Assembly (NCBI RefSeq): GCF_000688295.1
Contig: NZ_JHZF01000014.1
Coordinates: 62,001 to 126,000, forward strand
Reading direction: 5' to 3'
Length of the DNA: 64,000 bases
Source: Pseudooceanicola nanhaiensis DSM 18065
GTDB lineage: Bacteria > Pseudomonadota > Alphaproteobacteria > Rhodobacterales > Rhodobacteraceae
Of the stretch, positions 4,638 through 50,404 are shown piece after piece. The notes under the pieces are model-generated. The model ran no database searches and was not told the DNA's origin. It worked only from the letters and a program-made list of their open reading frames with translations. Numbering within the stretch: position 1 is the first letter of the stretch; each line of letters starts with the position of its first letter. A program made the translations under genes and the position numbers.

Positions 4638-6134
4638 GTGACCAAGCCGATTACCGAGGTGACGCCGAACACCTGGTCCTTCCTGCGCGACCCGATGATC
4701 ACGCCGACGGGCTTCCGCGAATACGATGCCCGCTGGAAATATCCGGACGAGATCAACCTGCCGGGCATGACCGCCCTCGGCCTCGGCATCGGCACCCAGA
4801 TGCGCCGCCGCGGGATCGAACCCGTGATCGCGGTGGGCAACGATTACCGGGATTATTCGCTGACCATCAAGAACGCGCTGGTGCTCGGCCTCATGCAGGC
4901 CGGGATCGCGGTGAAGGACATCGGGCCCTGCATCACGCCGATGGCCTATTTCTCGTCCTTCCACCTGGGCGTTCCGGGCGTGGCGATGGTCACCGCCTCG
5001 CACAACCCGAACGGCTGGACAGGGGTGAAGATGGGCTTCGAGATGCCGCTGACCCACGGGCCGGACGAGATGGGCGAGCTCAAGGAGATCGTGCTGGAGG
5101 GCAAGGGGGAGCCGCGCGAGGGCGGCTCCTACGAATTCGTGGAAGGCGTCTGGGACGCCTACATGGACGACCTCGTCGGCGATTTCCGCATGACCCGGAA
5201 GCTGAAGGTGGTCTGCGCCACCGGCAACGGGACGGCCGCGGCCTATGCGCCCGCGCTCTTCGAGCGGCTGGGGGTCGAGGTCGTGGATAGCCACAACCGG
5301 CTGGATTACACTTTCCCGAACTACAACCCGAACCCCGAGGCGATGGAGATGCTGCACGACATGTCCGCCTCGGTGAAGGCCTCGGGGGCGGATTTCGCCC
5401 TGGGCTTCGACGGGGACGGCGACCGCTGCGGCGTGGTGGACGACGAGGGCGAGGAGATCTTCGCCGACAAGGTGGGCGTGATCCTCGCGCGCGACCTGTC
5501 GAAGATCTACCCGGGCTCCACCTTCGTGGCGGACGTGAAGTCGACGGGGCTGTTTGCCTCCGATCCCGAGCTGATCGCGAACGGCGTGAAGGCGGATTAC
5601 TGGAAGACCGGGCATTCCCACATGAAGCGCCGGGTGCACGAGCTGGGCGCTCTGGCCGGGTTCGAGAAGTCGGGACATTACTTCATGGCCGAGCCCGTGG
5701 GCCGCGGCTATGACGACGGGATGCGGGTGGCGGTCGAGATCTGCAAGCTGATGGACCGCAACCCCGACATGAAGATGTCGGACCTGCGCAAGGCGCTGCC
5801 CAAGACCTGGTCGACGCCGACCATGTCGCCCCATGCGGCGGATACCGAGAAATACGACATCCTCGAGCGGCTGGTGCAGAAGCTGGTCGCCAAGGCCGAG
5901 GCCGGGGAGACGTTCGCGGGCCGCCCGATCAAGGAGGTCGTGACGGTGAACGGCGCGCGGGTGATCCTCGACAACGGCTCCTGGGGGCTGGTGCGGGCCT
6001 CGTCCAACACGCCGAACCTGGTGGTCGTCTGCGAGAGCTCGGAAAGCGGCGAGGAACTGCGCGCGATCTTCGAGGAGATCGACGCGGTGATCCGGACCGA
6101 AGAGGGCGTCGGCGCCTACGACCAGACGTTCTGA
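4638..6134 (+). CDS. Phosphomannomutase/phosphoglucomutase
   Basis: A 498-residue alpha-D-phosphohexomutase that interconverts hexose 1- and 6-phosphates to supply nucleotide-sugar synthesis. The phosphoserine loop is TASHNPNGW with Ser121, and the metal-binding loop is FDGDGDR near 255-261. Length and motifs fit the bacterial ManB/AlgC-type PMM/PGM family. It lies 24 bases after kdsA and is probably in the same operon, feeding sugars to the exported polysaccharide. Which hexose it prefers cannot be read from the sequence. Confidence 0.9.
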   Translation: MTKPITEVTPNTWSFLRDPMITPTGFREYDARWKYPDEINLPGMTALGLGIGTQMRRRGIEPVIAVGNDYRDYSLTIKNALVLGLMQAGIAVKDIGPCITPMAYFSSFHLGVPGVAMVTASHNPNGWTGVKMGFEMPLTHGPDEMGELKEIVLEGKGEPREGGSYEFVEGVWDAYMDDLVGDFRMTRKLKVVCATGNGTAAAYAPALFERLGVEVVDSHNRLDYTFPNYNPNPEAMEMLHDMSASVKASGADFALGFDGDGDRCGVVDDEGEEIFADKVGVILARDLSKIYPGSTFVADVKSTGLFASDPELIANGVKADYWKTGHSHMKRRVHELGALAGFEKSGHYFMAEPVGRGYDDGMRVAVEICKLMDRNPDMKMSDLRKALPKTWSTPTMSPHAADTEKYDILERLVQKLVAKAEAGETFAGRPIKEVVTVNGARVILDNGSWGLVRASSNTPNLVVVCESSESGEELRAIFEEIDAVIRTEEGVGAYDQTF

Positions 6135-6372: not shown

Positions 6373-7239
6373 CTACGACCGGAACAGCTTCGTCGCCGAG
6401 AACATCCGTTCCAGCGCCTCGATCCGGTCCCGCGCGGTGTCCCACCTCGCCGCCTGGACCTCGGCGATCAGCGCCTCGACCAGCAGCATGATCGCGACGG
6501 TGGAATCCCAGGAGGAGGGCGCCTCCACCGGCGCGTTGAACACGTGCCCGGCGACCGCCGTGATGGGCGAGCCCCATTGGTCCGTGAAGAGCACCACCAC
6601 CGCGCCCCTTTCCCGCGCGAGCTCCGCCAGCCTGAGCAGCTCCGCCTCGTAGCGCCGGATGTCGAAGAGCACGAGCACCGTCTCCGGCCCCATGTCGAGC
6701 AGGTATTGCGGCCAGACGTTCGGGCTCTGCGACAGGAGGGTCACGTCGGACCGGATGATCTGGAGATGGTTGAACAGGTAATCCGCGTTCGACCGCGTGA
6801 TCCGCCCGCCCGCGATATGCACCTTGCGCGCCGGATCGGCCAGAAGCCGCGCGACCCGGTCGAACTCCTCGGGGTCCACCCGGTCGAGCGTCATCCGCAG
6901 GTTCGCCGTCACGGCCGCCGCGAAACGGTGCAGCACATGCCCGTCCTCGCCGCCCGCGGTCCAGGCCTCGCGCCGGGCGATCGGCGCGCGGATCTGGGCC
7001 GCCGCCTCCTCGCGCAGCGCGTTCTGGAGGTCGGGATAGCCCTCGAACCCCAGCTTGCGCGCCATCCGGATGACCGTCGGTGTGGAAACCCCGGCCGCCG
7101 CCGCCAGCCGCGTCACCGATTGCAGCCCGGCCACGGGGTAGTCCTTGAGGAGGACCGCGGCCAGCTGCCGCTCGGAAGCGGTGAGGTCGCTGCGCAGCGC
7201 GTGGATGCGGTCCTTGACGATCTCCGGACGGTCGCTCAT
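6373..7239 (-). CDS. MurR/RpiR family transcriptional regulator
   Basis: A 288-residue regulator. The N-terminal helix-turn-helix (residues about 35-75, containing AAAAGVSTPTVIRMARKLGF) binds DNA, and the C-terminal SIS domain (about 120-260) usually senses a phosphosugar or related metabolite. It is transcribed away from the amidohydrolase-TRAP-ligase-dehydrogenase operon, and the 96-base gap between them holds repeated CTACA/TGTAG motifs. It is therefore the likely local regulator of that operon. The effector is unknown; for an amine or amino-alcohol pathway it need not be a sugar phosphate. Confidence 0.88.
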   Translation of the reverse strand: MSDRPEIVKDRIHALRSDLTASERQLAAVLLKDYPVAGLQSVTRLAAAAGVSTPTVIRMARKLGFEGYPDLQNALREEAAAQIRAPIARREAWTAGGEDGHVLHRFAAAVTANLRMTLDRVDPEEFDRVARLLADPARKVHIAGGRITRSNADYLFNHLQIIRSDVTLLSQSPNVWPQYLLDMGPETVLVLFDIRRYEAELLRLAELARERGAVVVLFTDQWGSPITAVAGHVFNAPVEAPSSWDSTVAIMLLVEALIAEVQAARWDTARDRIEALERMFSATKLFRS

Positions 7240-7335
7240 CGGCTGCTAGGTTTTTCTACAAGGCAACATGCTTCTGTAGCAAAGACTACAAATTGTCCGT
7301 TGACAAGTCCCTTGCCCGAGGGTCACCTGAACGGC
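7240..7335. promoter_or_regulatory. Divergent control region with putative RpiR operator motifs
   Basis: This AT-richer gap between the divergent regulator and the catabolic operon contains TCTACA (7255-7260), TGTAG (7275-7279) and CTACA (7286-7290). The first two form an imperfect inverted repeat of the type TTTnCTACA. TTGACA occurs at 7300-7305, but no -10 box is well placed after it. I infer an operator for the RpiR-type protein; the sequence does not prove it. Confidence 0.42.
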
Positions 7336-8100
7336 ATGACGAGCCCCAGCGAACCCAGCATCCTCGCCGCCGGCGAGGGCTCTCCGGTCGAGTGCCTGAA
7401 CCCGCAGGGGACGGCCGGCGTGGTGCTTGTCTGCGAACATGCGAGCCCCTTCATTCCGGCCGGGCTGACCGACCTGGGGCTTTCCGAGGCCGACCGCTGG
7501 AGCCATGCCGTCTGGGATCCCGGCGCGATGGAGGTGGCCCGGGCGATGTCCGCCGCACTGGACGCGCCGCTCGTGGCCGCGCGGGTGTCGCGGCTGGTCT
7601 ACGATTGCAACCGCCCGCCCGAGGCCGAGGGCGCGATGCCCGCGCGGACAGAGACGGTCGAGGTGCCGGGCAACCGCGACCTCACGCCCGAGGCGCGGGC
7701 GCTGCGGGTGCGCGAGGTCTACGAGCCCTTCCGCCGGACGCTGGCCGAGGTGCTGGCGGACCGCCCGAACGCCGCGCTGGTGACGGTCCATTCCTTCACG
7801 CCGGTCTGGTTCGGCACCCCCCGCAGCGCCGAGATCGGCCTGCTGCACGACGCCGACGACAGGCTGGCGCGGGCAATGCTCGGGAAGTCCTCGATCCTGC
7901 CGTCCGGGGTTGCGCTGAACGTGCCCTATTCCGCCGCGGACGGGGTGACGCACACGCTGAGGGAACACGGGCAGGGACGGCAGAGCGTGATGATCGAGAT
8001 CCGCAACGACCTGATCGCCGACACCGCCGCCGCGCACGAGATGGGTGGCGCCCTGGCGGCGGTCTGCATCGCCTCGATCGCGCCGGAGGGCGCGGCATGA
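7336..8100 (+). CDS. N-formylglutamate amidohydrolase family protein (first copy)
   Basis: A 254-residue metal-dependent amidohydrolase of the HutG/N-formylglutamate deformylase family. Typical segments are VLVCEHAS near 36-43, SRLVYDCNRP, VHSFTPVW and MIEIRNDLI. The start was set at ATG 7336 because upstream sequence in the same frame is the divergent control region, and a GAGGG lies about 10 bases upstream. The stop overlaps the start of the TRAP small permease (ATGA). With a glutamine-synthetase-like ligase and two dehydrogenases in the same operon, I infer that it may cleave a gamma-glutamyl amide rather than formylglutamate. Confidence 0.82.
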   Translation: MTSPSEPSILAAGEGSPVECLNPQGTAGVVLVCEHASPFIPAGLTDLGLSEADRWSHAVWDPGAMEVARAMSAALDAPLVAARVSRLVYDCNRPPEAEGAMPARTETVEVPGNRDLTPEARALRVREVYEPFRRTLAEVLADRPNAALVTVHSFTPVWFGTPRSAEIGLLHDADDRLARAMLGKSSILPSGVALNVPYSAADGVTHTLREHGQGRQSVMIEIRNDLIADTAAAHEMGGALAAVCIASIAPEGAA

Positions 8101-8693
8101 GGGGGTTCATCCGGATCGTCGACGGCTTCAACCGCGGCATCGGGCGGCTCATGATGTACGGGATCTTCGTCATCATGGGGATCCTGCTCTGGTCCTCCTA
8201 TTCCAAGGTCTTCGCGACGCCCTCGCTCTGGACGCTCGAAATGGCCCAGTTCGCGATGGTGGCCTATTACATCCTCGGCGGCCCCTACTCGATCCAGCTG
8301 GGCTCGAACGTGCGGATGGACCTGCTCTACAGCGAATGGTCGCTGCGCAAGAAGGCGTGGTGGGACGCGTTCACCATCTTCTTCCTGATCTTCTACCTCG
8401 GGGTGCTGCTCTGGGGCGGGCTGTCGTCGCTGGCCTACAGCCTCGGGCATTTCTCGGGCGGCTTCTGGGGCTTCTACGGCGAGGTCATTTCGGGCTTCTT
8501 CACCGGCGGCCCCGCGGGCGCGGCCGAGCCAATGGGTGTCATCGAGCATTCCCCGACCGCCTGGCGGCCCATCGTCTGGCCCGTCAAGCTGACGATGTGC
8601 GTCGGCATCTTCCTGATGCTGCTGCAATGCGTTTCCGAGTTCTTCAAGGATGTCCTGCGTCTGCGCGGTGAGGACATGGGGGAAAAGGCCTGA
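8097..8693 (+). CDS. TRAP transporter small permease (DctQ type)
   Basis: A 198-residue integral membrane protein with about four predicted membrane segments, beginning MRGFIRIVDGFNRGIG. It is the small membrane subunit of a tripartite ATP-independent periplasmic transporter, which imports organic acids or related small solutes using a sodium or proton gradient. It overlaps both neighbours by 4 and 1 bases, so translation is coupled. A region of about 40 residues between the third and fourth segments (GHFSGGFWGFYGE and onward) is longer than in minimal DctQ proteins. Confidence 0.88.
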   Translation: MRGFIRIVDGFNRGIGRLMMYGIFVIMGILLWSSYSKVFATPSLWTLEMAQFAMVAYYILGGPYSIQLGSNVRMDLLYSEWSLRKKAWWDAFTIFFLIFYLGVLLWGGLSSLAYSLGHFSGGFWGFYGEVISGFFTGGPAGAAEPMGVIEHSPTAWRPIVWPVKLTMCVGIFLMLLQCVSEFFKDVLRLRGEDMGEKA

Positions 8694-10018
8694 TGTCCTA
8701 CGAGATGATCGCGCTGCTCATGTTCTCGAGCATGATGGTGATGCTGCTGACCGGCCAGAGGGTCTTCGGCGCCATCGGCTTCGTGGCCGTGGTGGCCGCC
8801 CTGCTGCTCTGGGGCGACCGGGGCGGCTATGACCTGGGCTTCGCGGCGGCGATGAAGCTGATGAAATGGTATCCGCTGCTGACCCTGCCGATGTTCATCT
8901 TCATGGGCTACGTGCTGAGCGAGAGCCGGATCGCGGACGATCTCTACAAGATGTTCCACGTCTGGACCGGGGGGCTGCACGGCGGCCTCGCCATCGGGAC
9001 GATCGGGCTGATGGTGCTGATCTCGGCGATGAACGGGCTCTCGGTCGCGGGCATGGCGATCGGGGCGACCATCGCCCTGCCGGAACTGCTGAAGCGGGGG
9101 TATGACAAGCGGATGGTCACGGGGGTGATCCAGGCGGGGTCGTCGCTGGGGATCCTCGTGCCGCCCTCGGTGGTGCTGGTGCTCTACGCGATGATCGCGC
9201 GGCAGCCCGTGGGGCAGCTGTGGCTCGCCGGGGTGGTCCCGGGGCTGATGATGGCCTTCTTCTTCATCGTCTACATCGCGGTCCGCTGCCGGTTGCAGCC
9301 GGAGCTGGGCCCGGTCCTGCCGAAGGAGGAACGCACCGTCCCGATGGGCGAGAAGCTGAGGCTCCTCGGCGCGGGCCTCCTGCCGCTCTTCATCTTCTTC
9401 GCGATGATGGTGCCCTTCGTGAACGGCTGGACGAGCCTCGTGGAAAGCTCGGCCATCGGCGCGATCACGGCCTTCCTCGCCGCCGTCGTGAAGGGCCGGA
9501 TGACGCGGGAGGTCTTCGAGAACTCGGTCCGCAACACGCTGGGCATCTCCTGCATGTTCATGTGGATCATCCTCGCCGCGCTGGCCTTCGGCGCGGTCTT
9601 CGACGGGCTGGGCGCGGTGAAGGCCATCGAGGGCTTCTTCACCGAGAAGCTCGGCCTCGGGCCCTGGGGCATCCTGATCCTGATGCAGCTCAGCTTCATC
9701 CTGCTGGGGACCTTCCTCGACGACACCGCGATGCTGGTGATCGTCGCGCCGCTCTACGTGCCGCTGGTCGGGGAACTGGGCTTCAACCTGATCTGGTACG
9801 GCGTGCTCTACACCGTGACCTGCCAGATCGCCTACATGACGCCGCCCTTCGGCTATAACCTGTTCCTCATGCGCGCCATGGCGCCGCCCGAGATCACCCT
9901 TCGCGACATCTACGGCTCGATCCTGCCCTTCGTGGCTGTGATGGTCTTCACGCTGGTGGTGCTGATGCTCTTCCCCGAGATCGCGCTGTGGCTGCCCGAC
10001 ACGATCTACGACAACTGA
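8693..10018 (+). CDS. TRAP transporter large permease (DctM type)
   Basis: A 441-residue very hydrophobic protein with 12 or so membrane segments. It is the ion-coupled channel subunit of the transporter. Family features include GVIQAGSSLGILVPPSVVLV in the middle and LGTFLDDTAMLVIVAPLYVP near residue 340. The ATG shares a base with the small-permease stop. The substrate is set by the binding protein encoded next; gene order is small permease, large permease, binding protein. Confidence 0.93.
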   Translation: MSYEMIALLMFSSMMVMLLTGQRVFGAIGFVAVVAALLLWGDRGGYDLGFAAAMKLMKWYPLLTLPMFIFMGYVLSESRIADDLYKMFHVWTGGLHGGLAIGTIGLMVLISAMNGLSVAGMAIGATIALPELLKRGYDKRMVTGVIQAGSSLGILVPPSVVLVLYAMIARQPVGQLWLAGVVPGLMMAFFFIVYIAVRCRLQPELGPVLPKEERTVPMGEKLRLLGAGLLPLFIFFAMMVPFVNGWTSLVESSAIGAITAFLAAVVKGRMTREVFENSVRNTLGISCMFMWIILAALAFGAVFDGLGAVKAIEGFFTEKLGLGPWGILILMQLSFILLGTFLDDTAMLVIVAPLYVPLVGELGFNLIWYGVLYTVTCQIAYMTPPFGYNLFLMRAMAPPEITLRDIYGSILPFVAVMVFTLVVLMLFPEIALWLPDTIYDN

Positions 10019-10026
10019 CAACCAGA

Positions 10027-10043
10027 CCCCCGGCGCACGGGGG
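10027..10043 (+). other. Intercistronic hairpin between large permease and binding protein genes
   Basis: CCCCCG (10027-10032) pairs with CGGGGG (10038-10043) around the loop GCGCA. It lies in the only sizeable gap of the transporter genes, just before the binding-protein gene. It could stabilise a processed mRNA for the abundant binding protein. No T-run follows, so it is not a typical terminator. Confidence 0.4.
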
Positions 10044-10081
10044 CGCAGACCGATGAAACCGAAACCAGGGAGTTCTGACAG

Positions 10082-11119
10082 ATGACACTTTCCAGAAGAA
10101 AGATGCTGGCCGGCGCCGCGATGGTCGCCCCCGCCACGCTTGCCGCCCCGCGCATCGGCCGCACGCAGGAGCCGATCCGCTGGCGGATGCAGACCTATGC
10201 CGGCGCCGCGCTCGGCGAAGAGGTGACGAAGCCGATCGTCGACTACATCAACGAGGCGGCCGACGGCGAGATGGAGATCGAGCTGTTCTTCGCCGACCAG
10301 ATCGTGCCGACCGGAGAGCTGTTCCAGGCGCTCCAGCGCGGCACCATCGACATGGTGCATTCGGACGACGACTCGATGGCCTCGCCGACCCCGGTGCGGC
10401 AGTTCGGGGGGTATTTCCCGTTTGCGACCAAGCACATCCTCGACGTGCCGGTGCTGTTCGAGCAATACGGGCTGGGCGATATCTGGCGGTCCGAGTACGA
10501 GAAGGTGGGCGTCACCTGGCTGTCTTCGGCCGGGCAGGACCCGTGCAACTTCAACACGAAGAAGGAGATCACCAGCCTTGCCGATCTCGACGGGCTGAAG
10601 CTCTACACCTTCCCGACGGCGGGGCGCTTCCTTGCGCAGTTCGGCGTGGTGCCGGTGAACATCCCCTACGAGGATGCCGAGGTCGCGGTGCAGACCGGCG
10701 AGCTCGACGGCATGGCGTGGTCGGGGATCACCGAGGATTACACGGTCGGCTGGGCCAACGTCACCGACTACTTCCTGACCAACAACATCTCGGGCGCCTG
10801 GATCGGGTCGATCTTCGCCAACCAGGGTCGCTGGGCGGACCTGCCGGATCACCTCAAGCAGCTCGTCATGGCGGGGATCAAGGCGGCTGACACCTATCGC
10901 AACCAGTGGTACTGGGGCGGCGAGGCGCGGCTGCGGGCGACCGGCGACAAGCTGGAGCTGCGGACCGTGCCGGCCGAGGAATGGGCCGAGGTCGAGAACG
11001 CGGCCAAGGCCTTCTGGAAGGAAATCGCGCAGGAAGGCGAGATCGAGGCGAAGATCGTCGGGATCTTCGAGGAGTACAACTCGGTCATCAACCAGGCCGG
11101 CCCGCCGTACACGTTCTGA
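10082..11119 (+). CDS. TRAP transporter substrate-binding protein (DctP family)
   Basis: A 345-residue periplasmic binding protein. The N-terminus MTLSRRKMLAGAAMVAPATL looks like a twin-arginine signal (SRRKML) followed by a hydrophobic stretch and cleavage near residue 25-30. The mature domain is of the DctP type. It captures the solute and hands it to the two permeases encoded upstream. A GGAG ribosome binding site precedes the ATG. The substrate is not identifiable by motif; the downstream ligase and dehydrogenases suggest an amine, amino alcohol or a related compound. Confidence 0.9.
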   Translation: MTLSRRKMLAGAAMVAPATLAAPRIGRTQEPIRWRMQTYAGAALGEEVTKPIVDYINEAADGEMEIELFFADQIVPTGELFQALQRGTIDMVHSDDDSMASPTPVRQFGGYFPFATKHILDVPVLFEQYGLGDIWRSEYEKVGVTWLSSAGQDPCNFNTKKEITSLADLDGLKLYTFPTAGRFLAQFGVVPVNIPYEDAEVAVQTGELDGMAWSGITEDYTVGWANVTDYFLTNNISGAWIGSIFANQGRWADLPDHLKQLVMAGIKAADTYRNQWYWGGEARLRATGDKLELRTVPAEEWAEVENAAKAFWKEIAQEGEIEAKIVGIFEEYNSVINQAGPPYTF

Positions 11120-11211
11120 GCGGCGCCACCTTGCGCACGGGGGGCGGCCGGGCCCCAATGAGAAACGGTCGGGCGGGGACGCCCGGCCTCGTCACCTGAA
11201 GGAGAGACCCC

Positions 11212-12576
11212 ATGCCCGGGAACCTGACATTCGCCGATCTCAAGAAGAAGGCCAAGGCCGGCGAGATCGACACGGTGCTGGCCTGCATCGTCGACATGCA
11301 GGGCCGCCTGATGGGCAAGCGCTTCACTGCCGGGCATTTCGTCGAAAGCGCCTGGGAAGAGAGCCATTGCTGCAACTACCTGCTGGCGACGGACCTCGAT
11401 ATGGCGACGCCGGAGGGCTATGCCTCGACCTCGTGGCACGCGGGCTATGGCGATTACATGATGAAGCCCGACCTCGACACGCTGCGGCTGGTGCCCTGGC
11501 TCGAGGGCACGGCGATGGTGCTCTGCGACGTGCGGGACCATCATGACCACGGCGACATCGAACATTCCCCCCGCGCGGTGCTGAAGCGCCAGATCGCCCG
11601 GGCGGAGAAGATGGGCCTCACGCCGATGATGGCGACGGAGCTGGAGTTCTTCCTGTTCAAGGGCGGCTACAACGAGCTGCGCGAGCAGGGGTATCGCAAG
11701 CTCGAGCCCTATTCGGCCTACAACATCGATTACCACATGCTCGGCACGATGAAGGAAGAGCACGTGATGCGGCCGATCCGGAATCACCTCGTCGCCGCCG
11801 GTGTGCCGGTGGAGAACACGAAGGGCGAGGCGGAAGCCGGGCAGGAGGAGCTGAACATCCGCTACGCGGAGGCTCTGGACTGCGCCGACAACCACACGAT
11901 CGCCAAGCAGGCGGTGAAGGAGATCGCCTGGCAGCAGGGGGTCTCGGCCTCGTTCCTGTCGAAGTACAAGGCGGGCAAGGTCGGCTCGGCCGCCCATGTG
12001 CACGTGTCGCTCTGGAAGGACGGGTCGCCCGCGTTCTACGACAAGGACGGCGATCACGGCATGTCGCCCCTGATGCGCCAGTTCTGCGCCGGGATGATCA
12101 AGTACGCGGCCGACATCACCTGGTTCCTCGCGCCCTACATCAATTCCTACAAGCGCTTCGCCAAGGGGACCTTCGCGCCGACCAAGATCGCATGGTCGGT
12201 GGACAACCGCACGGCCGGGTTCCGGCTTTGCGGCGAGGGCTCCAAGGGGGTGCGGATGGAATGCCGGATCCCCGGGTCCGACGTGAACCCCTACCTTGCC
12301 GAGGCGGCCCTGCTCGCCGCCGGGCTGAAGGGGATCGAGGAGGGGCTGGAGCTCGCCCCTCCGGTCGAGGGCGACATCTACGACGACGCGACCGTGCCCG
12401 AGATCCCGCGCTCTCTGGGGGCCGCGACCGAGCGGATGCGGGCCTCGGCCATGCTGCGCGAGGCATTCGGGGACTGGACCATCGACCATTACTGCCGCAC
12501 GGCGGAGGTCGAGCAGGAGACCTTCGACGCCGCCGTGACCGATTGGGAAATCGCGCGGGGGTTCGAGAAGGCGTAA
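11212..12576 (+). CDS. Glutamine synthetase-family ligase (gamma-glutamyl-amine synthetase type)
   Basis: A 454-residue type I glutamine-synthetase-fold enzyme. Family blocks are ELEFFLF near residue 144, the metal/glutamate segment GSAAHVHVSLW near 263, and SYKRFAKGTFAPTKIAW with DNRTAGFR near 308-335. Enzymes of this subgroup (for example PuuA and GlnA4) often join glutamate to an amine other than ammonia. Its placement between an uptake system and aldehyde and alcohol dehydrogenases supports a catabolic gamma-glutamylation role rather than nitrogen assimilation. An AGGAGA ribosome binding site precedes the ATG. The exact amine is unknown. Confidence 0.85.
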   Translation: MPGNLTFADLKKKAKAGEIDTVLACIVDMQGRLMGKRFTAGHFVESAWEESHCCNYLLATDLDMATPEGYASTSWHAGYGDYMMKPDLDTLRLVPWLEGTAMVLCDVRDHHDHGDIEHSPRAVLKRQIARAEKMGLTPMMATELEFFLFKGGYNELREQGYRKLEPYSAYNIDYHMLGTMKEEHVMRPIRNHLVAAGVPVENTKGEAEAGQEELNIRYAEALDCADNHTIAKQAVKEIAWQQGVSASFLSKYKAGKVGSAAHVHVSLWKDGSPAFYDKDGDHGMSPLMRQFCAGMIKYAADITWFLAPYINSYKRFAKGTFAPTKIAWSVDNRTAGFRLCGEGSKGVRMECRIPGSDVNPYLAEAALLAAGLKGIEEGLELAPPVEGDIYDDATVPEIPRSLGAATERMRASAMLREAFGDWTIDHYCRTAEVEQETFDAAVTDWEIARGFEKA

Positions 12577-12599
12577 GACGGAAGCGCCACGTTCGAACG

Positions 12600-12750
12600 G
12601 GCTCGCCCGGCCGCAGGCCGGGCCGCGCCCGACCCTCCCCCCCGGGAGGGCGCATCGTCTCCGCCCCGCGCCGAAGCATCGGCATGTGCGCGACGATGCC
12701 TCGCTGACCTTCGAGGTCGCAGCGCCCACCCAGGGTCGGGCGCTGCCCTC
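12600..12750. repeat. Two-hairpin GC-rich intergenic repeat, copy B, with inverted half-copy
   Basis: Hairpin 1 is 12606-12612 with 12616-12622 (loop GCA), and hairpin 2 is 12633-12639 with 12644-12650. The core GCGCCCGACCC at 12625-12635 matches copy A near 6227 and is present again in reverse complement at 12733-12743. The element fills the 212-base gap between the ligase and aldehyde dehydrogenase genes. It may cause partial termination or mRNA processing inside the operon. I see no gene here. Confidence 0.72.
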
Positions 12751-12788
12751 CACTCCAAGGACCCCACGCCAGAAGAAAGGCGCCCGAC

Positions 12789-14162
12789 ATGACCACACTC
12801 CACTGCATCTCCCCCATCGACGGCTCCGTCCTCGCGACCCGCGAGGCGCTCTCCCTCGACGCCGCCCGCTCCGCCGCCGCACAGGCCCGCGCCGCGCAGA
12901 AGAACTGGGCCGCGCGCCCGCTGCAGGAGCGGATCGACCTCGTCATGGCGGGCGTCGCGAAGATCGGTGAGCAGACCGACCGGATGGTGACGGAGCTCGC
13001 CCAGCAGATGGGGCGCCCGATCCGCTACGGCGGCGAGTTCGGCGGCTTCAACGAGCGTGCCGCCTACATGGCGCAGATCGCCGAGGAGGCGCTGGCGCCG
13101 ATGGTGATCGAGGACAGCGCCACCGCCCGCCGCGTGATCAAGCGCGAACCGGCGGGGGTCGTGCTGATCGTGGCGCCGTGGAACTATCCCTACATGACGG
13201 CGATCAACACGCTGGCGCCGGCGCTCATCTCGGGCTCCACGGTGATCCTGAAGCACGCGACCCAGACGATGCTCGTGGGTGAACACCTCGCCGAGGCGTT
13301 CCACGACGCAGGTGTCCCGCCGGACGTGTTCCAGAACGTCTTCCTCGACCACGAGACGACCTCGGCCCTGATCGGGGAACGCGCCTTCGATTTCGTGAAC
13401 TTCACCGGGTCGGTGAACGGCGGCAAGGCAATGGAAGTCGCCGCCGCCGGGACCTTCACGCAGGTCGCGACCGAGCTCGGCGGCAAGGACCCGGGCTATG
13501 TCCGCGAGGATGCCGACGTGCAGGCGGCGGTCGACGGGCTGATCGACGGCGCGATGTTCAACTCGGGCCAGTGCTGCTGCGGGATCGAGCGGATCTATGT
13601 CCACGAGAGCCTCTACGACGCCTTCGTCGAGAAGGCCGTGGCACTGGTGAAGGGCTACCGGCTCGGCCACCCGATGGACCCGACGACCGACATCGGCCCG
13701 ATGGCCCATGTGCGTTTCGCCGACCTCGTCCGCCGCCAGATCGCGCAGGCGCTGAACATGGGCGCGACCGCCCATATCGACCACATGGAGGCCGATGACG
13801 AGGGCGCCTATCTGACGCCCCAGATCCTGACGGACGTCACCCACGAGATGGACGTGATGACCGAAGAGAGCTTCGGCCCCGTTGTCGGCATCATGAAGGT
13901 CCGCGACGACGAGCACGCCATCGAGCTGATGAACGACTGCAAATACGGCCTGACGGCGGCGATCTGGACGAAGGACGCCGCCGCCGCCGAGGCGATCGGC
14001 GCGCGGCTGGAGACGGGGACCGTCTTCATGAACCGCCAGGACTACCTCGACCCCGCGCTCTGCTGGACCGGCTGCAAGGACACCGGACGCGGCGCGGGCC
14101 TCTCCGTGCTGGGCTATCACGCGCTGACCCGGCCGAAATCCTACCACCTGAAGAAGGGCTGA
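12789..14162 (+). CDS. NAD(P)-dependent aldehyde dehydrogenase
   Basis: A 457-residue aldehyde dehydrogenase. The substrate-oxidising motif is NSGQCCCGIERIYV with Cys262-264, and the general-base glutamate lies in TELGGKDP. It is PuuC/BetB-like in its fold. In this operon it would oxidise the aldehyde made by the downstream alcohol dehydrogenase, possibly while the amino group is masked by glutamate. Three consecutive cysteines at the catalytic site are unusual but do occur in the superfamily. It is separated from the alcohol dehydrogenase gene by 5 bases. Confidence 0.9.
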   Translation: MTTLHCISPIDGSVLATREALSLDAARSAAAQARAAQKNWAARPLQERIDLVMAGVAKIGEQTDRMVTELAQQMGRPIRYGGEFGGFNERAAYMAQIAEEALAPMVIEDSATARRVIKREPAGVVLIVAPWNYPYMTAINTLAPALISGSTVILKHATQTMLVGEHLAEAFHDAGVPPDVFQNVFLDHETTSALIGERAFDFVNFTGSVNGGKAMEVAAAGTFTQVATELGGKDPGYVREDADVQAAVDGLIDGAMFNSGQCCCGIERIYVHESLYDAFVEKAVALVKGYRLGHPMDPTTDIGPMAHVRFADLVRRQIAQALNMGATAHIDHMEADDEGAYLTPQILTDVTHEMDVMTEESFGPVVGIMKVRDDEHAIELMNDCKYGLTAAIWTKDAAAAEAIGARLETGTVFMNRQDYLDPALCWTGCKDTGRGAGLSVLGYHALTRPKSYHLKKG

Positions 14163-14167
14163 CCCCC

Positions 14168-15313
14168 ATGGCTTTGACCGGCAACTGGTCCTACCCCACC
14201 TCGATCCGCTTCGGCGCGGGCCGCATCTCGGAACTGGCCGAGGCCTGCATTGCGGCGGGGATCGAGAAACCGCTCCTGATCACCGACAAGGGGCTGGCGT
14301 CGATGGACATCACCGCGCAGGCGCTCGACGTGCTGGACGGCGCGGGCATGGGCCGCGCGATCTTTTCCGAGGTCGATCCGAACCCGAACGAGACGAATGT
14401 CGAGGCCGGGCTGAAGGTCTACCGCGAGGGCGGGTATGACGGCGTCGTGGCCTTCGGCGGCGGCTCGGGGCTGGACCTCGCGAAGACCGTGGCCTTCATG
14501 GCCGGGCAATCGCGCCCGCTCTGGGATTTCGAGGACATCGGCGACTGGTGGACCCGCGCCGACCCGGCAGGCATCGCGCCCATCGTGGCGGTGCCGACGA
14601 CCGCCGGCACCGGATCGGAGGTGGGGCGCGCCGGCGTCATCACCAATTCCGAAACCCATGAGAAGAAGATCATCTTCCACCCGAAGATGCTGCCCGCCGT
14701 GGTGATCTGCGACCCCGAGCTGACCGTGGGGATGCCTAAGGGCATCACCGCCGGCACCGGGCTCGACGCGTTTGCGCATTGCGTGGAGGCGTTCTCCTCC
14801 CCGCATTACCATCCGATGAGCCAAGGCATCGCGCTGGAGGGGATGCGGCTGGTCAAGGACTACCTGCCGCGCGCCTACAACGACGGCACCGACATCGAGG
14901 CCCGCGCCCAGATGATGAGCGCGGCGGCCATGGGCGCGACGGCGTTCCAGAAGGGTCTGGGGGCGATCCACGCGCTCTCGCATCCGATCGGGGCGTGGCA
15001 TCACACGCACCACGGCACGACCAACGCGGTCTGCATGCCGGCGGTGCTCCAGTTCAACAAGGACGTGATCGCGGAGCGCTTCGACATGGCCGCGGCCTAT
15101 CTCGGGATCAAGGGCGGCTTCGTGGGCTTCTGCGATTACGTGAACGGGCTGAACGACGCGCTCGGCGTGCCGAAGAGCCTGACCGAGCTGGGGGTGAAGG
15201 ACCCGGATATCGAGACGCTGACCGAGGCCGCGCTGAAGGATCCGAGCGTGGGCGGAAACCCGGTGGAGATGACCTACGAGAACACGAAGGCGCTGCTCGA
15301 GAGCCTCGTCTGA
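14168..15313 (+). CDS. Iron-containing alcohol dehydrogenase
   Basis: A 381-residue group III (iron-type) alcohol dehydrogenase. The nucleotide-binding GGGSGLDLAK motif lies near residue 97, and metal-ligand histidines are in DAFAHCVEAF and HALSHPIGAWHHTHHG (about 200-285). It oxidises a primary alcohol to the aldehyde using NAD. As the last gene of the operon, 5 bases after the aldehyde dehydrogenase, it completes an alcohol-aldehyde-acid oxidation pair. Strong hairpins follow its stop codon. Confidence 0.92.
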   Translation: MALTGNWSYPTSIRFGAGRISELAEACIAAGIEKPLLITDKGLASMDITAQALDVLDGAGMGRAIFSEVDPNPNETNVEAGLKVYREGGYDGVVAFGGGSGLDLAKTVAFMAGQSRPLWDFEDIGDWWTRADPAGIAPIVAVPTTAGTGSEVGRAGVITNSETHEKKIIFHPKMLPAVVICDPELTVGMPKGITAGTGLDAFAHCVEAFSSPHYHPMSQGIALEGMRLVKDYLPRAYNDGTDIEARAQMMSAAAMGATAFQKGLGAIHALSHPIGAWHHTHHGTTNAVCMPAVLQFNKDVIAERFDMAAAYLGIKGGFVGFCDYVNGLNDALGVPKSLTELGVKDPDIETLTEAALKDPSVGGNPVEMTYENTKALLESLV

Positions 15314-15427: not shown

Positions 15428-16810
15428 TTACCCGGCCACCACCATCACGGCCTTGGTGTTGGTGAACTCCTTCATCCCGAAGCCGCCGTGCTCGCGGCCA
15501 TAGCCCGAGCGTTTCACGCCGCCGAAGGGCATCTCGGGCGTCGCAAGGCCGAAGCCGTTGATGAAGACCATGCCGGTGTCGAACTCGGCCTCGGCCAGTT
15601 TCACCGCGCGGTCCACGTCGCCCGACATGATGCCGCCGCCGAGCCCATAGGGGCTGTCGTTGGCGATGCGCATGGCGTCCTGGGCATCCTTCGCCCGGAT
15701 CAGCGAGGCGACGGGGCCGAAGAGCTCGTCGTCATAGGCGGGCTGGCCGGGCGTCACCTCGTCCAGCACGGTGGCGGGGTAATAATAGCCCGTGCCCTCG
15801 GGCTTCTCCCCGCCGCAGAGGATCTTCGCACCTTTCGAGACGCTCTCCTCCACCTGCTTGTGCAGCGTGTCGCGCTGGTCGCCGGTGACGAGCGGGCCGA
15901 GCTGCGTGCCGTCCTGCGTGGGATCGCCGACCTCCACGGCCTTCATCTGTTCGACGAAGGCGTCGCGGAACCTGTCGTAGATCGCATCCACCACGACGAA
16001 GCGCTTGGCGGCGACGCAGGTCTCGCCGTTGTTGTAGATCCGGCCCGTGACGCAGGCCTTCACCGCGGTCTCCAGATCGGCGTCCTCGAGCACGACGTAG
16101 GCGTCGTTCGAGCCGAGCTCCAGCACCGACTTCTTCAGCGCACCCGCCGCCTTGGCACCGACATGTGCGCCCGCGCCGGGGCTGCCGGTCAGGGTCACGC
16201 CGCGCACCTTGTCGTGTTCGATGATCGCGTCCGACTGGTCGTGGTCGATCAGCAGGACGGTGAAGAGGTCCTTCGGCAGGCCACCCGCCTCGATGATCTC
16301 GGCCAGCATCAGGCCGGAGCCGGTGCAGGAGGCCGCGTGCTTCAGCAGCACGCCGTTGCCCGCCATCAGGTTCGCGATGGTGTAGCGGATCACCTGGTAG
16401 GCCGGGAAGTTCCACGGCTGGATGCCGTAGATCACCCCGATGGGCGCATGCACCACGCGGCCGCGCTTGCCGTTGGAGATCGCGCGCTCCTCGGGCGCCA
16501 GTTCCTTCGGCCCGTGCTCGGCGGTCCAGTCGCAGATGGCGGCGCAGAGCTCGACCTCGTCGCGCGAGGCCGAGAGCGTCTTGCCCATCTCGCGGGTCAT
16601 CAGGGCGGCGAGGTCCTCCTTGCGGTCCCGCAGCGCCTTGCCGATGCCGCGGAGCACCTCCGCGCGGTCCTCGACCGACCGCGTGCGCCATTCGAGGAAG
16701 GCGGCGTGGCAGGCCTCGACCGCGGCGTCCGCGGCGTTGTCGGTCATGTAGGTGTAGGTCTCGATCACCTCTTCGGTGGCCGGGTTGATGGTGTTGAACG
16801 TGCCTGGCAT
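15428..16810 (-). CDS. NAD(P)-dependent succinate-semialdehyde dehydrogenase-type aldehyde dehydrogenase
   Basis: A 460-residue aldehyde dehydrogenase of the GabD/Sad type. The catalytic Cys is in NNGETCVAAKRF, the glutamate is in LELGSNDAY, and the C-terminal segment PFGGVKRSGYGREHG is typical of succinate-semialdehyde dehydrogenases. The start was placed at ATG 16810 because AAGGA lies 7-8 bases upstream and the longer frame has no supporting site. It converges on the amine/alcohol operon across a terminator, and it could handle a semialdehyde product of that pathway, but it is separately transcribed. Confidence 0.85.
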   Translation of the reverse strand: MPGTFNTINPATEEVIETYTYMTDNAADAAVEACHAAFLEWRTRSVEDRAEVLRGIGKALRDRKEDLAALMTREMGKTLSASRDEVELCAAICDWTAEHGPKELAPEERAISNGKRGRVVHAPIGVIYGIQPWNFPAYQVIRYTIANLMAGNGVLLKHAASCTGSGLMLAEIIEAGGLPKDLFTVLLIDHDQSDAIIEHDKVRGVTLTGSPGAGAHVGAKAAGALKKSVLELGSNDAYVVLEDADLETAVKACVTGRIYNNGETCVAAKRFVVVDAIYDRFRDAFVEQMKAVEVGDPTQDGTQLGPLVTGDQRDTLHKQVEESVSKGAKILCGGEKPEGTGYYYPATVLDEVTPGQPAYDDELFGPVASLIRAKDAQDAMRIANDSPYGLGGGIMSGDVDRAVKLAEAEFDTGMVFINGFGLATPEMPFGGVKRSGYGREHGGFGMKEFTNTKAVMVVAG

Positions 16811-17018
16811 GGGGATCCTTTCCGCGGGAAATCCGGATGGGCGGGCGCAGGGCCCTTTCCAGAGGCAACGGGGGCCTCGGCGCGTTGTTCCCTCACGAAA
16901 TTCTGTTCCGCCAAGGCCTTGTCCGGGCGCGGGAAAGGGCACGGCGGCTGGTTGACGGGAGCCAAGGCTGATATAGCTTTCGAGAACCCTCCGTTCGTCA
17001 CAGGGATCCCCGACGGTC

Positions 17019-17651
17019 ATGGACAGCCACCCCGCATCCGGGTCGGAAGACACCTCGGACCTCATCGCATGCCCGAAATGCGACGCGCTCTACCGCGTGG
17101 TCGAGCCCGACCCGCGTGAGCGGGCGGTCTGCGCGCGCTGTCACACGGTGCTGATCGCGCCGCGGGCCCGGGCCGGCATGCAGCTGATCGCGATCTCGCT
17201 CACGGTGGTGATCCTCGTGGTCGCGGCAACGATCTTTCCGTTCCTGACGATCCACATCGGGGGCGCATGGCATTCCAGCTCGATCCTCGACGCGGCGCTC
17301 AGTTTCCGCGGCGGCACCTTCTACGCGCTGGCCCTGACCGTGGCGGCGCTCATCGTCTTCTTTCCGGTCCTGCGGGCGCTGCTCACGCTCTACGTGCTGG
17401 TGCCCGTGGTCTTCGACCGCCCGCCCGCCCGTGGCGCCAGGGCCGCCTTCAACCTGTCCGAGAGCCTGCGCCCCTGGTCCATGGCCGAGGTCTTCGCCAT
17501 CGGCTGCGCGGTCGCGCTGGTGAAGGTCGTCGACCTGGCCGACGTCGAATTCGGGCCGGCCTTCTACATGTTCTCGTCCCTCGTGATCCTGGTCGTCGTG
17601 CAGGACACCTTCTTGTGCAGGTACTCGGTATGGAAAGCCCTGGAAGAATGA
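17019..17651 (+). CDS. pqiA: Paraquat-inducible protein A family, first subunit
   Basis: A 210-residue membrane protein of the PqiA family. A zinc-ribbon-like motif CPKCDALYRV...CARCHTVL lies in the first 45 residues, followed by four predicted membrane segments. PqiA sits in the inner membrane and works with PqiB and PqiC to move lipids between membranes. E. coli PqiA is one protein with two such halves; here the halves are two separate genes. The stop overlaps the next start (ATGA). Confidence 0.88.
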   Translation: MDSHPASGSEDTSDLIACPKCDALYRVVEPDPRERAVCARCHTVLIAPRARAGMQLIAISLTVVILVVAATIFPFLTIHIGGAWHSSSILDAALSFRGGTFYALALTVAALIVFFPVLRALLTLYVLVPVVFDRPPARGARAAFNLSESLRPWSMAEVFAIGCAVALVKVVDLADVEFGPAFYMFSSLVILVVVQDTFLCRYSVWKALEE

Positions 17652-49547: not shown

Positions 49548-50288
49548 TCAGAGCCCCGAGATCGCCAGCGCCTCGGCCAGCATCGGCGCCAGCCGCGCGG
49601 CCCAGGCGCGCTGGCCCTCCGGCGTGGCGATCAGGTCGTTCCGCAGCTCGATGAGCACGTTGGGCCGCCCGTGGTCGATCGCGTGCCGCTCCACCGCGTC
49701 GCCGGGCAGGTGGCCGCCGTAGGGCTCGTTCTCGCCCACGCAGAGGTCCGGCTCCTGCCGGAGCCGCGTCAGCAGCGCCTGCGCCAGCCGTTCGTCGCGG
49801 CCGTAGAGCACGCCGACCTGCCAGGGCCGGGGCGGCCGCCCGCGCAGCTGCGGCGTGAAGGAATGGATCGACAGGAGCACCGTGTCGTCCCGCCGCGCCG
49901 CCAGCCCCGCGAGCGCGGCGTGGTAGGGCCGGTAACAGGCGTCGAGCCTGCGCTCCAGCTCCTCGGGGCCGGCGTGCCGGTTCGCCGGGATGATCGAGCC
50001 GTCGTAGAGCTTCATCAGGAGCGTCGGATCGTCCTCGCCCCGGTTCGGGTCGATCACCAGGCGCGAGAAGTTCGACAGGATCGCGGGGCCATCCAGCGCC
50101 TCGGCCAGCGCCAGCGTCACCTCGGCGGCGCCCGGGTCGTAGGCGATGTGGCGGTTCATGTCCGCTTGCGGAAGGCCCAGCGACCCGCCGCCGACGAAAT
50201 CCGGCACCGTGTTCGCGGCGTGATCGCAGGTCACGAGCCAGCGGGACGGGCGGTCTGCGCCAATAATTTGGTAGGGCTTGTATGTCAT
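49548..50288 (-). CDS. N-formylglutamate amidohydrolase family protein (second copy)
   Basis: A 246-residue amidohydrolase related to the protein encoded at 7336-8100 (shared patterns CDHAANTVP, SRLVIDPNR, LSIHSFTPQLRG and VLIELRNDLI). It has no transport or ligase genes beside it and sits tail to tail with the cyclase-family gene. The start was set at ATG 50288; the longer frame lacks a ribosome binding site. It may be the general N-formylglutamate or N-acyl-amino-acid hydrolase, leaving the first copy for a special substrate. Confidence 0.85.
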   Translation of the reverse strand: MTYKPYQIIGADRPSRWLVTCDHAANTVPDFVGGGSLGLPQADMNRHIAYDPGAAEVTLALAEALDGPAILSNFSRLVIDPNRGEDDPTLLMKLYDGSIIPANRHAGPEELERRLDACYRPYHAALAGLAARRDDTVLLSIHSFTPQLRGRPPRPWQVGVLYGRDERLAQALLTRLRQEPDLCVGENEPYGGHLPGDAVERHAIDHGRPNVLIELRNDLIATPEGQRAWAARLAPMLAEALAISGL

Positions 50289-50404
50289 GCCTGCGTCACC
50301 CGGCCGTGGCACGGCTCTGTCGGTTGTTGCCTCATGGGAAAAACGCAATACTAAGGGCGGGGCTCGGGCACAAGCGGCGCCCAACGGGCAGTCAAAGGAG
50401 AGAC

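Follow-up and report, generated by a model that had tools for sequence, protein, structure and literature searches.

A TRAP transporter gene block of Pseudooceanicola nanhaiensis, very probably an ethanolamine gamma-glutamylation operon of the eto type

The presence of TRAP transporter genes beside those of a glutamine-synthetase-like ligase and two dehydrogenases raises the questions of which compound is imported and whether its processing follows a known route. This gene combination was analyzed in a 64,000-nucleotide stretch of the Pseudooceanicola nanhaiensis DSM 18065 genome, referred to here as the window. The initial annotation proposed that an imported amino alcohol or amine is glutamylated, oxidized twice and released from glutamate by an amidohydrolase, and regarded several of the participating protein families as new in this role.

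Gene content and published counterparts

The block comprises eight genes between 6373 and 15313. A gene for an RpiR-family regulator on the reverse strand (6373-7239; Pfam HTH_6 2e-16, SIS 3e-17) is separated by a divergent intergenic region of 96 bp (7240-7335) from seven operon genes on the forward strand. These encode an FGase-family amidohydrolase (7336-8100; PF05013, 4e-36), the small TRAP permease DctQ (8097-8693; PF04290, 1e-12), the large TRAP permease DctM (8693-10018; PF06808, 4e-66), the TRAP solute-binding protein DctP (10082-11119; PF03480, 2e-27), the glutamine-synthetase-like ligase (11212-12576; PF00120, Gln-synt_C, 5e-99), an aldehyde dehydrogenase (12789-14162; PF00171, Aldedh, 2e-117) and an iron-containing alcohol dehydrogenase (14168-15313; PF00465, 3e-48; PF25137, 1e-42). 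The genes and the divergent regulator had been annotated correctly, as had the extent of 7336-15313, since all are open reading frames with strong Pfam matches.

Two neighboring genes were considered as members of the operon and rejected. The aldehyde dehydrogenase gene at 15428-17065 is SSADH-like, lies on the reverse strand convergent with the operon, and was not found beside it in the 20 relatives of a first set or in 80 named relatives. The phosphoglucomutase gene upstream (4638-6134) recurs in no relative but the closest one (L039). The window also contains a second FGase-family amidohydrolase gene on the reverse strand (49548-50384), away from the ethanolamine genes, and the whole genome has four FGase genes.

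All eight genes, including the divergent regulator, are found in the same order in 57 of the 80 named relatives, where several of the loci without the full array are cut by contig ends. The full array occurs in Roseovarius, Pseudooceanicola, Sulfitobacter, Ruegeria, Hoeflea, Mesorhizobium and others. In alignments of 74-77 relatives per enzyme, the cysteine and Glu229 of the aldehyde dehydrogenase and H35, D90, R93, H152 and E221 of the amidohydrolase are conserved. The metal ligands D200, H204, H268 and H282 of the alcohol dehydrogenase are invariant (76 relatives), as are the metal, ATP and glutamate residues E143, E145, E213, H262, H264, R315, E350 and R352 of the ligase (77 relatives). Since catalytic and metal residues are kept across relatives, the operon genes look functional rather than decayed.

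An array of the same eight genes, arranged identically and with the same divergent regulator and proposed chemistry, forms the ethanolamine operon of the marine Phaeobacter sp. MED193 (MED193_10021-10056) described by Westermann et al. 2023, who also refer to previous studies of C. salexigens and A. tumefaciens (PMC10132767). The comparison is based on the published map and not on sequence; because the MED193 locus tags are consecutive, their gene order equals that of the window, and no difference in gene content or order was found by this map. The tags correspond to RpiR (10021), the gamma-glutamylglycine amidohydrolase GGAH (10026), the transporter proteins EtoV, EtoW and EtoX (10031-10041; DctQ, DctM and DctP in the window), the ethanolamine gamma-glutamylase ETAGA (10046), GAADDH, assigned to the conversion of gamma-glutamylacetaldehydeamide to gamma-glutamylglycine (10051), and the gamma-glutamylethanolamide dehydrogenase GETADH (10056). 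Five of the encoded proteins were induced on phosphorylethanolamine, EtoX binds ethanolamine with a Kd of 7.9 +/- 1.9 uM, and the enzyme steps in the published pathway figure carry the label 'predicted' (PMC10132767). The block in the window can be regarded with high confidence as an eto-type ethanolamine gamma-glutamylation operon of Rhodobacterales, and this operon is already known from 2023.

The initially proposed chemistry of import, gamma-glutamylation, two oxidations and glutamate release agrees with the published model for this operon (PMC10132767). Since the MED193 operon and a proposal of the same chemistry for Streptomyces have been published, the novelties claimed for three protein families were anticipated. 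The TRAP importer corresponds to EtoVWX in the same gene order (PMC10132767). In the available part of Krysenko et al. 2019, the GlnA4 pathway of Streptomyces coelicolor (SCO1611-1615) likewise consists of gamma-glutamylation of ethanolamine, two oxidations and a predicted FGase-family last step that releases glycine and glutamate, but in contrast to the window, no TRAP operon is described there (PMC6529630). The alcohol dehydrogenase occupies the same operon place in the MED193 map, where the enzyme is named just 'gamma-glutamylethanolamide dehydrogenase' (PMC10132767). Its iron type is shown here by family, through the PF00465 and PF25137 matches of the window protein. The logic of protection before oxidation is also that of the Puu pathway with PuuA, in which putrescine is the substrate and the hydrolase PuuD is of the class I amidotransferase type.

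Substrate of the transporter

The best PDB match of DctP is Csal_0678 of Chromohalobacter salexigens (4UAB/4XF5; E 1e-137; 62 % identity, 198/317 AA), with the next match far behind (E 1e-16). In 4UAB, ethanolamine is bound to Csal_0678 with Glu220 as the platform residue, and this protein is without the carboxylate-binding arginine typical of most TRAP binding proteins. Vetting et al. 2015 is reportedly the original Chromohalobacter paper. The platform residue corresponds to Glu218 of DctP, an assignment based on sequence position and not on coordinates (PDB 220 to chain index 217), and Glu218, Tyr220, Trp224 and Trp240 are invariant in 100/100 relatives. By these sequence features, DctP can be placed in the ethanolamine-binding clade of Csal_0678.

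A congener (G014, L139:5865-11093) carries the genes for DctQ, DctM, DctP, EutB and EutC contiguously, with the last two replacing the glutamylation enzymes. Its TRAP transporter is of the same family as that of the window (DctP 53 % identical), and its position directly before eutB and eutC supports ethanolamine as the substrate independently of the publication. The EutBC ethanolamine ammonia-lyase route is a B12-dependent deamination of the same substrate and, through this congener, has the TRAP family in common with the operon. However, it lacks glutamylation, and EutB (PF06751) was not found in the window genome by profile search.

Among 100 relatives, 39 have both the TRAP transporter and the ligase, 47 have neither, nine only the transporter and five only the ligase (Fisher p 1e-13, uncorrected for relatedness). 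At the thresholds used, ligase and EutB are both absent from seven transporter-positive relatives. For 17 genomes with the transporter away from the ligase, a ligase relative is found elsewhere in nine, and another four lack the ligase but carry EutB. Co-occurrence of the transporter with EutB alone shows no association in the 100 relatives (3/48 vs 5/52). Therefore, only the adjacency in the congener and the split between ligase and EutB in the 17 genomes carry weight in this comparison. In one genome (G043, L044:2910-4246), the DctM match is in two pieces and the ligase is on another contig, which could be a frameshift or an assembly error. In another, near-complete genome (G099, L046), the TRAP, FGase and RpiR genes are present, but neither EutB nor, at E 1e-100, a relative of the ligase was found.

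Any primary amino alcohol would suit the chemistry of the two dehydrogenases, so that the main natural substrate could also be 2-amino-1-propanol, 1-amino-2-propanol or a similar small compound. Csal_0678 is represented in the PDB by 4UAB and 4XF5, the latter presumably with 2-amino-1-propanol. Such a substrate is nevertheless improbable, since the pocket region of the window DctP is the same as that of the ethanolamine binder, the same-family transporter is paired with the annotated ethanolamine ammonia-lyase in the congener, and the Phaeobacter EtoX binds ethanolamine at micromolar concentration (PMC10132767). Ethanolamine, one of several candidates in the initial annotation, is now the most likely substrate of the operon.

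The ligase and the proposed pathway

The best solved relative of the ligase is 5DM3 (66 % identity, 295/450 AA), a glutamine-synthetase-like protein which is presumably Csal_0679. The ligase scores below all NCBIfam equivalog cut-offs for glutamine synthetases, including GlnA (244 bits, cut-off 429), the type III enzyme (235 bits, cut-off 470) and the PuuA-type GGputSyn (213.5 bits, cut-off 650). Near the ammonium site, D61 and Y174 are invariant; the region of D50 does not align unambiguously. Y174 aligns with a tyrosine of GlnA for which GlnA4 and PauA7 have other residues, so by sequence alignment the window ligase keeps a residue that GlnA4 does not (PMC6529630). These residues do not settle the amine specificity of the ligase on the basis of its sequence. 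Their lack of a clear replacement would fit an ordinary, ammonium-assimilating glutamine synthetase that stands in a transport operon by chance. This is very improbable given the scores far below the profile cut-offs, the presence of a separate canonical GlnA, which is the best PF00120 match in the genome (C11:574608), and the joint occurrence of the ligase gene with the transporter and dehydrogenase genes. It is hardly credible that a carboxylate is the import substrate and that the enzymes belong to a different pathway: a conserved arginine binds carboxylates in most TRAP binding proteins (Arg147; arginine in 2hzk), but its equivalent in DctP is Tyr175, the 100 relatives have tyrosine (79) or phenylalanine (21) and never arginine at this position, and the nearest structure is an ethanolamine complex.

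For the other enzymes, the closest genomic paralog of the operon aldehyde dehydrogenase is just 31-35 % identical, and the sole PDB relative of the amidohydrolase is 2ODF, Atu2144 of Agrobacterium (E 5e-59). In an ethanolamine pathway, EtoX would capture ethanolamine in the periplasm and EtoVW would bring it into the cell, where the ligase would join it to glutamate at the expense of ATP, yielding gamma-glutamylethanolamide. The alcohol of this compound would be oxidized to the aldehyde by the iron-containing dehydrogenase, and the aldehyde to gamma-glutamylglycine by the aldehyde dehydrogenase. Finally, the FGase-family amidohydrolase would release glycine and glutamate, the latter being recycled. 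For the window strain, we infer each enzymatic step, as well as the RpiR operator, from operon order, protein families and models in the literature. Ethanolamine binding by EtoX and Csal_0678 and the induction of operon proteins have been shown experimentally in other bacteria (PMC10132767 for EtoX and induction).

A candidate operator and the significance of the operon

The intergenic region contains the palindrome TGTAG-N6-CTACA (TGTAGCAAAGACTACA, 7275-7290), which is the sole match in the 4.66 Mb genome. In 73 equivalent gaps of relatives, it is the commonest dyad, with 16 occurrences by exact-dyad count, and any dyad reaches at most 3/73 in shuffled gaps. Since the relatives are not independent and the dyad is lacking in other lineages, it is considered a candidate operator only. 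TGTAGCAAAGACTACA is probably the site through which RpiR would govern the divergent promoter. This single-site operator and the replacement, within one genus, of the glutamylation module by EutBC downstream of a same-family TRAP transporter may be undescribed, with about equal chances for and against.

An apparently new pathway is the published one, and the EutBC exchange provides independent genomic support for the substrate of the operon. Ethanolamine is a headgroup product of membrane lipids and is abundant in the sea. The operon, which often occurs without EutB in the genomes surveyed, lets bacteria use it as a source of nitrogen and carbon.
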